A DNA stretch of 64,000 nucleotides from Sorangiineae bacterium NIC37A_2 (GTDB lineage: Bacteria > Myxococcota_A > Polyangia > Polyangiales > Polyangiaceae): NCBI GenBank assembly GCA_002085155.1, contig NASX01000018.1:1-64000 (forward strand), read 5' to 3'. Position 1 is the stretch's first letter. The number at the start of each line of letters is the position of its first letter. Both the position numbers and the translations under genes were made by a program. The notes below the pieces were generated by a model. The model was given only the letters and a program-made list of their open reading frames with translations, was not told the DNA's origin and did no database searches. Below are positions 1-63,569 of the stretch, one piece after another.

Positions 1-178
1 CGCGCGGCTCGACGCGAAACTCGACGGACGAGGCGTCCGGTCCGAGGGGCGCCTCCAGCACTACGCGAAAGTGGCGCAGAAAGTCGCGCACTGGCATGTT
101 CGCTTCGCTGGCAAAACGAGCAGTGGCCTGTTCGCGGGCAGCCTCGAGCTCATGAATGACAACTTCTAGTCGGCTCAT
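1..178 (-). CDS. Hypothetical 60-aa-family protein, copy 1 (runs off left edge)
   Basis: Starts with ATG at 178 on the minus strand and stays open to the window edge, so the C-terminus is not visible. It is the second copy in transcription order, starting 18 bp after the stop of the neighbouring copy. The protein is the same as that copy except for His in place of Pro at about residue 36 (from the base change at 72). No family is recognised. The N-terminal half looks like a charged helix (residues about 2-25) and the rest like a short beta segment. No clear ribosome binding site is seen. Confidence 0.5.
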   Translation of the reverse strand, partial: MSRLEVVIHELEAAREQATARFASEANMPVRDFLRHFRVVLEAPLGPDASSVEFRVEPR

Positions 179-196
179 CAGGGGGGCCGCGGAGAG

Positions 197-379
197 TTAC
201 TCGCGCGGCTCGACGCGAAACTCGACGGACGAGGCGTCCGGTCCGAGGGGCGCCTCCAGCACTACGCGAAAGGGGCGCAGAAAGTCGCGCACTGGCATGT
301 TCGCTTCGCTGGCAAAACGAGCAGTGGCCTGTTCGCGGGCAGCCTCGAGCTCATGAATGACAACTTCTAGTCGGCTCAT
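197..379 (-). CDS. Hypothetical 60-aa protein, copy 2 of a tandem pair
   Basis: A complete 60-residue reading frame from ATG 379 to TAA 197. It begins MSRLEVVIHELEAAR and ends VEFRVEPRE. The first 25 residues are predicted to be an amphipathic helix; the remainder is mixed, with alternating hydrophobic residues. No signal peptide, Cys or known motif is seen, and the family is not recognised. It is followed 18 bp later by its near-identical copy. Conservation of the frame in both copies, with only one missense change, mildly supports it being coding. The upstream 249 bp to relA contains no other convincing gene. Confidence 0.5.
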   Translation of the reverse strand: MSRLEVVIHELEAAREQATARFASEANMPVRDFLRPFRVVLEAPLGPDASSVEFRVEPRE

Positions 380-628
380 CTCGGAGTGCGACGCGCAGTA
401 TCACGCGAAACGCACTCGTACACCTCTTTTTTTACGAAGGTTCCTCGAAATTTCTTCCCCGGCGCCCTGCCGATCTCCCGGTGTCAGTCCCAGCCGCCAG
501 GGCGGACCAGCCAGCCCTGAACGGGGGACGCAAAACCTGCACCTGCCCACATCTTCGTACACGTGGGGCCTTCGCCGGTCCGGCGGCGGGCTCAGCCAGC
601 CGAGTGCTGACCCGCGGCCCAATAGCCG

Positions 629-2779
629 TCAGACGCGGCTCACCGAGACGACGCCGTTGATCTTGCCCAAAGACTTCATGACGTTCTTGAGCTGATCGAG
701 GTCGCTACAGTGGAAGGTGAAGATGTTGTGCGCGCGCCCGTCGCTCTCCGCGCGACAATTCGCTTCGCTGATGTTCACGCGCTGAGCGCTCAGGGTCTGG
801 CTGATGTTGGCCAGGATGCCCGGGCGATTGTTCGTCACCACGGCGATGCTCACGGGACGATTCACCTTGGCCCGGCTGTCCCAGGTCACGTCGATTCGGC
901 GCGCGGGATCGGCGTCGAAGGCGCGCGGACAGTCGCGCCGGTGCACCGTCACGCCTCGGCCCCGCGTGATGAATCCGAGGATGGCGTCGCCGGGCAGCGG
1001 ATTACAGCAGCGAGAGTACCGCACGAGAACGTTATCGATGCCGGAGACCTTAATGCCGCTATCCGTCTCGCGCTTCACACGACGGACCAGCGTCTCAATG
1101 GCGCCGGCCTTGAGCTCGGCTGCCTTGCCGCCCACCGAGCCCTGAACGGTCTCGATAACCTGCTCAACTCCGAGCTTGCCGTAGCCGATCGCGAGGAAGA
1201 GCTCTTCGAGCGAGCCGACCTCGTGAGCTTTGAGCAGAGCGTCGAGACGATTCGAATCCTTCTGCAGTTTGGCCCAGCTGAGGCCCGCTGAGCGCATGGC
1301 CGACTCGACCAGCTCGCGGCCCAGATTGATGCTCTTTTGGCGCTTCTCGGCCCGAAGGAAGGCGCGGATCCGGTTCTTTGCGCGGGTGGTGACGCAGGCT
1401 TCGACCCAATCTTTGCTCGGCTCCTGGGTTGCGCTCGTCATGATTTCGACGACGTCGCCGCTCTTGAGCTTGTGACGGATCGGGACGATCTGGCCGTTAC
1501 AGCGCGCGCCAGAACAGTGGTGTCCGACTTCGCTGTGGATCGCGTAAGCGAAGTCGATAGGCGTAGCGCCCCGCGGAAAGACGCGAACGTCTCCCTTCGG
1601 GGTGAAGACGTAGACCTCGTCGGGGAAGAGGTCGATCTTGACGCTCTCGAGGAACTCAGCGGGATCCTTGAGGTTTCGCTGGTAGTCGGCGAGCTCCCGG
1701 AGCCAGCCGAAGCGCTTGGCCGCCTCCGGATCGATGCCCCCTGAGTGGCGTTCTTTGTACTTCCAGTGGGCCGCGACGCCGGCTTCGGCCACACGGTGCA
1801 TGCTGTTTGTGCGGATCTGGACTTCGATGCGCTGTCGGCCGGGTCCAATCGCCGTCGTGTGCAGCGACTGGTACATGTTCGGTTTCGGCAGCGCGATGTA
1901 GTCCTTGAAGCGTCCCGGCACCGGGGTCCAGCGGGAATGGATCGCGCCGAGACACGCATAACAATCCGCCTCCGTCTCGACGATGATGCGGAAGGCGATC
2001 AGATCGTGGATCTGCTCGAACTCACACTCCTGATCCCGCATCTTGCGGTAGATGGAGTAGGAGTGTTTCGCACGTCCGGAGACCTGAGCGTTGAAGCCTT
2101 GTTCGGCGAGGCGCGCTGCGATCGTCTTCTCGGTGCTCTCGATGTAGCGAAGCCGCTCCTTGAGTGACTTGTGCAGCTTGGCCTGGATTTCTCGGTATGC
2201 GTCGGGTTCGAGGTAGCGGAAGGACGTGTCCTCGAGCTCGTTCTTGATGACGTGGAGACCGAGCCGGTTGGCCAGCGGCGCGTAAATCTCGAGCGTTTCT
2301 CGAGCGATACGCTCCTGAGCCGACGGGCTCATGTGCTCGAGGGTGCGCATGTTGTCCACGCGATCGCAGAGCTTCACCATGAGCACCCGGATGTCCTTGG
2401 CCATAGCCACGACCATCTTGCGGAAGCTCTCGGCCTGCGCGTCTTCGCGGGACGTGAAGTTGATCTTGCCGAGCTTGGTCACCCCGTCGACCAGCGTCGC
2501 GATCTCCTTACCGAATTCAGACTCAATCTCGGCCAGGGTTACGTTTGTGTCTTCGACAACGTCGTGCAAAAAGCCGGCGCAGATGCTGGTAGCGTCCAGC
2601 TTCAATCCAGCAATGAGCGCTCCGACACGCGCAGGATGGGTAAAGTAGGGCTCACCGCTTTTGCGAAACTGATCCCGATGAGCCCATTCGCCAAAACGGT
2701 AACACCTCTCGATTAGCCCGAGGTCCGCCGTTTCCTGATAGGACCGGACACGGGCCAAGATTTCATCAAGCGCTGTCAC
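629..2779 (-). CDS. relA/spoT: Bifunctional (p)ppGpp synthetase/hydrolase, RelA/SpoT family
   Basis: A 716-aa long RSH enzyme that makes and degrades the alarmone (p)ppGpp in the stringent response. Domains in order: an HD hydrolase domain with intact ligands (FTHPA around His48, LHDVVEDT with His72-Asp73); a synthetase domain (GRAKHSYSIYRKM near 235-247, FKDYIALPKPNMYQSLH near 291-307); a TGS domain (about 393-455); and a C-terminal ACT domain (about 640-716, NRPGILANISQTL). Because the HD residues are present, a bifunctional Rel enzyme is more likely than a synthetase-only RelA. The start is GTG at 2779, only 27 bp from the divergent hemW start, so the two promoters must overlap or lie in coding sequence. 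Confidence 0.95.
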   Translation of the reverse strand: MTALDEILARVRSYQETADLGLIERCYRFGEWAHRDQFRKSGEPYFTHPARVGALIAGLKLDATSICAGFLHDVVEDTNVTLAEIESEFGKEIATLVDGVTKLGKINFTSREDAQAESFRKMVVAMAKDIRVLMVKLCDRVDNMRTLEHMSPSAQERIARETLEIYAPLANRLGLHVIKNELEDTSFRYLEPDAYREIQAKLHKSLKERLRYIESTEKTIAARLAEQGFNAQVSGRAKHSYSIYRKMRDQECEFEQIHDLIAFRIIVETEADCYACLGAIHSRWTPVPGRFKDYIALPKPNMYQSLHTTAIGPGRQRIEVQIRTNSMHRVAEAGVAAHWKYKERHSGGIDPEAAKRFGWLRELADYQRNLKDPAEFLESVKIDLFPDEVYVFTPKGDVRVFPRGATPIDFAYAIHSEVGHHCSGARCNGQIVPIRHKLKSGDVVEIMTSATQEPSKDWVEACVTTRAKNRIRAFLRAEKRQKSINLGRELVESAMRSAGLSWAKLQKDSNRLDALLKAHEVGSLEELFLAIGYGKLGVEQVIETVQGSVGGKAAELKAGAIETLVRRVKRETDSGIKVSGIDNVLVRYSRCCNPLPGDAILGFITRGRGVTVHRRDCPRAFDADPARRIDVTWDSRAKVNRPVSIAVVTNNRPGILANISQTLSAQRVNISEANCRAESDGRAHNIFTFHCSDLDQLKNVMKSLGKINGVVSVSRV

Positions 2780-62402: not shown

Positions 62403-63569
62403 TTACGCCTGCTGAAAAAGGGTCTGCTCCGCTGGCCGAAGCCACTTGTCGCGATGCAACAGAGCCTGCTCACGCGGCACAAACACCCCGTCTTCGACGA
62501 GGCCGATCGAAGCGCTCACCGCAGCGCCTGCGAAGCCCGCGAGATGGAAAGTCCCGGAGCTTTGCGCATCAGGCGCCCCGAGATGGAGCGGGATCCTCGC
62601 CTCTTCAGCGGTCGGTCGACCGGCGCGACCGTGGAAAGCGAAGAGCACGATCGTCGCCGTCGAAGCTCCCTTTTCGCCTACCGGCCACGACCAGGCGACG
62701 ACGAGCTCCGAGCCACTCACGCTCAGGCGAATTTCAGGACGCACGGCTGCTATGGCCTGCGCCTCGGGCTCCGAGGGCACCGCTTGGGGCGCAGGCTCGG
62801 CAAGAGCTTCCGGCGCGCCCTCGACCGGCTTCACCTCTGGCACGATAGGCGCAGGCTCGGCAAGAGCTTCCGGCGCGCCCTCGATCGGCTTCACCTCTGG
62901 CACGATAGGCGCAGGCTCCGCCACGTCTTCGGCCTCGATAGGCTGCTCCTGGGGCTCGACTCGGGGAACCGCGACCGCTTCTCGCGCCTCCTTGGGCTCC
63001 GAGGGCGAAGCCTCTGCTTCGGCGACAGGAGCCGGAGAAGCTTGGACCGGTGGTGGGTCACCGGTTCGAATCTCCTCGCCAGTGGTCTCGAGGACCTGCT
63101 TTTCGGGCTCTCCGCGGAGCGCGAGCCCTGGCTCCTGCAGCTCCTGCTCGCGGCGCAAGCGCTCGCGCAGCCTCTGAGCCTCGAGGTGATCGGGCTCGGC
63201 CTCGAGCACCCGTTCGACCATCGCGAGAGCTCGGTCCGGGTGCCCCTGGGCGGCGTAGATCTCGGCGAGCGTAACGGTCGCGACCGGCGGTCCCCCGGAC
63301 ACTTGGGCGCTCAAGGTTTGTGTGCCGCGAATGAGGGCTGCCGCCTCCGGCATCTTGAGGCCGGTCTCCATCATGCTGGCGAGCATCGAGCGCGCAATGC
63401 CGAAGAAGCCCCGCGCCACATCGGCTTCGCCGCCGGTCTTGGTGCGCCGCAAGATCTCGTCGCGTAGCTCAGGCCGCGTCAGACGATCCGCGCGCTCAAC
63501 GCCAAGGCTTGCGGCGCGAGCCACGAGCTCCGCACGGGACATGGAGAGGAGAACGTCGGGCCCAACCAT
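62403..63569 (-). CDS. Rho_N/SAP-like, TPR-containing protein with Pro/Glu tandem repeats
   Basis: A 388-aa protein. Residues about 8-42 (SRAELVARAASLGVERADRL ... LRDEILRRT) resemble a Rho N-terminal/SAP-type nucleic acid-binding fold. About 95-145 looks like TPR (LAEIYAAQGHPDRALAMVERVL). Residues about 170-275 are Pro/Glu/Ala-rich and include two nearly identical 20-aa repeats encoded by 62791-62910. The C-terminal domain (about 280-380) has the look of DUF4912 (hydrophobic strand with W-S-W, FVPREQALLHR), tentatively. Such Rho_N/DUF4912 proteins occur in myxobacteria with unknown function. ribF precedes it by 39 bp. Confidence 0.65.
   Translation of the reverse strand: MVGPDVLLSMSRAELVARAASLGVERADRLTRPELRDEILRRTKTGGEADVARGFFGIARSMLASMMETGLKMPEAAALIRGTQTLSAQVSGGPPVATVTLAEIYAAQGHPDRALAMVERVLEAEPDHLEAQRLRERLRREQELQEPGLALRGEPEKQVLETTGEEIRTGDPPPVQASPAPVAEAEASPSEPKEAREAVAVPRVEPQEQPIEAEDVAEPAPIVPEVKPIEGAPEALAEPAPIVPEVKPVEGAPEALAEPAPQAVPSEPEAQAIAAVRPEIRLSVSGSELVVAWSWPVGEKGASTATIVLFAFHGRAGRPTAEEARIPLHLGAPDAQSSGTFHLAGFAGAAVSASIGLVEDGVFVPREQALLHRDKWLRPAEQTLFQQA
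62791..62910. repeat. Two tandem 60-bp repeats within coding sequence
   Basis: Bases 62791-62850 and 62851-62910 differ at one position (62825/62885, C versus T), and a third copy starts at 62911 but diverges within ten bases. In protein they encode the repeat (V/I)PEVKP(I/V)EGAPEALAEPAPI, with an Ile/Val change. This is a recent in-frame expansion. Confidence 0.93.

Follow-up and report, generated by a model that had tools for sequence, protein, structure and literature searches.

The window analysed here is a 64,000-nucleotide stretch comprising bases 1-64000 of contig C110 (82,096 bp), which belongs to a draft genome of 150 contigs and 5.0 Mb that is 98% complete, with an estimated contamination of 3.12%. 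At its left edge, and on the minus strand throughout, two near-identical copies of a short reading frame lie downstream of spoT. Base 1 is the start of the contig, so the locus edge remarked upon in the first-pass annotation is a contig end and not an arbitrary window edge. The features of the region are as follows.

1-179, minus strand: left repeat unit, truncated where the contig begins and comprising unit positions 23-201.
1-178, minus strand: distal copy of the ORF, with His as residue 36; the window has 59 of its codons, and the last codon and stop are on contig C136.
72, no strand: the sole difference between the copies, T (His codon) as against G at 273 in the other copy (Pro codon).
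179/180, no strand: duplication junction, blunt, with no base common to either outer border.
180-380, minus strand: right repeat unit, complete, 201 bp.
197-379, minus strand: promoter-proximal copy of the ORF (60 aa), with Pro as residue 36.
381-628, minus strand: spacer from spoT to the first ORF copy, without a sigma-70-type promoter, terminator or Rfam family.
629-2779, minus strand: RelA/SpoT-type (p)ppGpp synthetase/hydrolase gene (spoT) with HD, RelA_SpoT, TGS and ACT domains, upstream of the ORF copies and on the same strand.

Bases 1-179 and 202-380 align as 179-base copies with exactly one mismatch, T at 72 against G at 273, as the first-pass annotation had reported. Tandem Repeats Finder places the array at 1-380 with a period of 201 and 99% matches, and of the five rows returned for the window this is the only one whose period exceeds 60. 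The true repeat unit is 201 bp (180-380) and not the 179 bp first given; bases 180-201 (22 bases) are part of the unit because contig C136 has them too, where the array begins on its left side. That contig (69,508 bp) was found by searching bases 1-380 against the source genome, which returned, besides the window itself, one further place, the terminal 93 bases of C136. These bases are 100% identical to window 180-272 (unit positions 1-93) and are immediately preceded by unique sequence. Because the sequence ahead of them differs, the array's left border lies on C136. Overlaying the end of C136 on the start of C110, which share an overlap of exactly 71 identical bases, yields the full 60-aa distal ORF with a TAA stop. 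The adjacency of the two contigs is independently placed by the related genome G002, which shows the same gene order with one ORF copy. Read across both contigs, the array has the order unique sequence, unit (His), unit (Pro), unique sequence, the copies being adjacent and in the same orientation, with unique sequence at the right outer border in C110 and at the left one on C136. Extension to the left, proposed earlier as a means of counting copies, thus supplied the left border and a count of at least two; two is a minimum, and further copies collapsed in the assembly, or a mixture of strains, may be present.

Each unit holds one complete 60-codon minus-strand frame, in which the variable base (72/273) exchanges His for Pro. 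The earlier statement that both frames are open, 60 aa long and distinguished by a Pro/His change is upheld, with the amendment that the left frame lacks its stop in the window and is completed on C136. With a unit length divisible by three, both copies lie in one frame; translation between them gives a stop (TAA), then L-S-A-A-P-L, then M. The unit begins one base ahead of the ATG, such that the distal copy is preceded by the far end of the unit and not by the native leader. At the junction, CTCATC/AGGGGG has nothing in common with the left border (CCCAG/AGGGGG) or the right border (CTCATC/TCGGAG) beyond the unit itself. A search for sigma-70-like promoters and terminators found none in bases 1-900, a result of little weight in an organism of this kind, and an RNA family search of window 1-1500 returned none up to E 1.

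Within the relatives set, the ORF has matches in three of 59 genomes, namely the source and both other genomes of its genus, G002 (61% identity) and G001 (58%), each of which carries a single copy. A profile built from the three genus members and applied at E <= 1e-4 to 183 genomes of the order recovered the same number, three, with none outside the genus, and at E <= 0.001 in a phylum sample it matched two of 377 genomes, both from the same genus. When the threshold was relaxed to E <= 0.01 in the family, weak matches (E 0.004-0.01) appeared in three more of 108 genomes and at one other place in the source genome. These were judged to be chance; those outside L014 lay within or across larger unrelated frames. 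A wider contig collection gave, among the matches listed, one confirmed locus, from a record titled Myxococcales bacterium (isolate AS06rmzACSIP_372), with its match position as in G001.

Comparison with G002 gave dN of 0.39-0.40 and dS of 1.8-1.9, a dN/dS of about 0.2, and 35 of the 70-71 differences fall at third codon positions; against G001, synonymous sites are saturated. The frame is therefore conserved with an excess of synonymous change in the comparison with G002, and by this substitution pattern it behaves as a real gene held under purifying selection across the genus. The conservation in relatives on which the first-pass annotation had staked the gene is thus borne out. The Ka/Ks test that it had suggested is informative only in this comparison between genomes, since the copies differ from one another by no synonymous and one nonsynonymous change, which tells nothing on selection. 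The variable site is His in both G001 and G002; because both outgroups have His, the Pro of the copy at 197-379 is derived and His is ancestral.

Taxonomically restricted small (orphan) protein genes form a general class, and the ORF resembles them in its length of 60 aa, in its confinement to one genus in the 183-genome order and 377-genome phylum samples, and in having no family match. It differs from them in that one genome holds two near-identical copies and in that it occupies two different sites within the genus. The first-pass view that the protein belongs to no known family was confirmed: searches of Pfam, NCBIfam, PHROGs, PADLOC and the sequences of solved structures gave nothing credible, and Pfam yielded no family for any of four members up to E 1. 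Nor does the protein match a known phage, plasmid or defence protein (best PHROG E 0.084; PADLOC 0); no match in viral contigs was confirmed among 172 pattern stretches, and plasmids gave none. The small protein is an undescribed genus-level family. An AlphaFold2 model from a three-row alignment (mean pLDDT 89) has a helix at 3-25, a short helix at 30-33 and a beta-hairpin with strands at 37-42 and 53-58, so that residue 36 stands directly ahead of the first predicted strand. The protein is thus predicted to be a small alpha + beta-hairpin protein. Foldseek searches with the predicted model gave none at E <= 0.001 (best PDB E 2.5; viral models 0.85). From size and predicted fold, our best guess would be a protein-binding role, as an adaptor or oligomerising element, rather than an enzymatic one.

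The gene order in G002 is spoT, ORF and a convergent kinase-TPR gene, the same as that of C110 joined to C136. In G001, spoT and the kinase-TPR gene are on separate contigs (C26 and C53), and no relative of the ORF is found near either. Its ORF, of 98 codons, instead starts 113 bases past the end of a 6S RNA (54.8 bits, gathering cut-off 46.4; in L009, 6S RNA 1836-2026, ORF 2139 onward). Because the ORF follows spoT in the source genome and G002 but follows 6S RNA in G001, the location of the gene has shifted within the genus. No relative was found around spoT in G001, G059, G013 or G060 (best tblastn E 0.16). Both sites adjoin growth-control genes, which may be a coincidence and to which we give little weight. 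As a separate observation, the source genome has a 6S RNA candidate at C79:18302-18493 (L022 1501-1692) that scores 37.3 bits, under the Rfam cut-off, and whose neighbours resemble by eye those flanking the G001 6S RNA; the ORF is absent from its vicinity.

We consider it likely that the array represents a recent, precise and probably near-neutral head-to-tail duplication of 201 bp, carrying one complete genus-restricted small gene downstream of spoT. At least some of the population probably carries the duplication, in two copies or more. Its recency, as first proposed, accords with one difference in 179 bases. Since the junction has no base in common with the borders, we infer an illegitimate, homology-independent event, which could have proceeded by template switching or end joining. 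With the unit beginning a single base ahead of the ATG, and so bringing no native leader along, the distal copy would be read only as the second of two cistrons. The two-copy state would be near-neutral and transient, with drift (His36 to Pro) already under way in the promoter-proximal copy. Small tandem duplications that arise in bacteria through illegitimate recombination are alike in having head-to-tail, near-identical copies, unique flanks and a recent origin. A study in Salmonella reports that all of its confirmed spontaneous rearrangements had short repeats at their endpoints (PMC3411829). The short direct repeats of the confirmed cases there differ from the blunt junction seen here, which would make a blunt end the less usual form among those cases and would count against the proposed duplication.

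Two further observations weigh against this duplication in its simplest form, and both come from modelling the assembly as a word graph. For a clean two-copy genome, the start of C110 is reproduced with words of 71 but not with words of 75, 91, 101 or 121, so that it fits only one of the lengths tried. A unitig end at unit base 93, which is where C136 stops, one base short of the variable site, is obtained for words up to 91 but not for 101 or 121; a clean two-copy genome assembled at words of 101 would not stop C136 there. Comparison of 100 of the 300 contig ends (57 starts, 43 ends), overlaps consisting only of N being left out, gave six overlaps: the 71 bases of C136 and C110, and others of 75, 91, 100, 101 and 101 bases. 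A word length of 71, considered on the strength of the C136/C110 overlap, was dropped in view of the other five. Because the overlaps vary (71-101 bases), they do not fix the word length of the assembler.

A variant of the duplication just described, and one that does not exclude it, is that only some cells carry two copies and are mixed with single-copy cells or other allele combinations, so that copy number is polymorphic. Mixtures with the G allele beside the left flank reproduce the C136 end at words of 101 and 121 as well. The argument hinges, however, on the word length used by the assembler, for which overlaps of 75, 91, 100 and 101 bases give no single value, and we regard this variant as possible but somewhat doubtful. 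More doubtful still is an assembly artefact, in which only single-copy genomes exist and two alleles of a T/G polymorphism have been strung serially at a contig end. The duplication does lie at a contig end of a 150-contig draft with 3.12% estimated contamination, and in the word-graph model, for all the word lengths used, a two-allele bubble causes a stop where C136 ends, one base short of the variable site. Single-copy alleles, however, would not connect unit base 201 back to unit base 1, a step that the contig takes without N or overlap, and the identical 22-base spacer recurs on C136 at the left border. That the junction at 179/180 is exact and free of gaps thus speaks against the artefact that the first-pass annotation had named as its refutation, and leaves it unlikely.

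The same annotation had also suggested that the gene may be amplified and dosage-selected, or that the copies may mark where a longer array runs on outside the window. The one observation in favour of this is that two near-identical copies exist. Immediately to the left of the first unit, C136 has unique sequence; G001 and G002 carry a single copy each; and no known function links the gene to dosage. A longer array is not supported in view of that border, collapsed extra copies being what may remain of it, and no evidence of dosage selection was found; the idea in either form is very improbable. Equally speculative, and given very little credence, is a reading in which a genus-restricted alpha + beta-hairpin protein without known fold relatives settles beside genes of growth control, namely spoT in the source genome and G002 and 6S RNA in G001, and might act on the stringent response or RNA polymerase, with the Pro36 allele retained in tandem while it diverges into a partner, for instance within a mixed dimer. 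The least credible proposal derives the protein from an AraC-type helix-turn-helix domain, of which it would be a remnant. Behind it stands a weak alignment between profile positions 17-42 and an AraC-family regulator encoded in the source genome (E 0.009; 26 columns in hhalign, probability 75%), but the pair was picked after a genome-wide search and its E-value is therefore flattering, no helix-turn-helix profile matched and none of the four members has a Pfam match up to E 1, and the predicted strand at 37-42 falls inside the matched stretch, where a helix-turn-helix would be helical.

Small, recent duplications of whole genes are raw material for new gene families. The duplication at C110/C136 offers a clear polarity, in that the copy that changed can be named, and clear borders; it is otherwise an ordinary draft-genome event, with nothing that hints at a special function, and the small protein family may merit an annotation line. 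Two minor observations concern repeats elsewhere in the source genome. The start of contig C3 (L057) and the end of C131 (L056) carry short tandem repeats close to CCGAGCCCT, which may be the cause of the assembly breaks there. At 62788-62918 of the window, a 60-bp tandem repeat of 2.2 copies with 98% matches lies in frame within a Pro/Glu/Ala-rich stretch of a 388-aa minus-strand frame (62403-63569).
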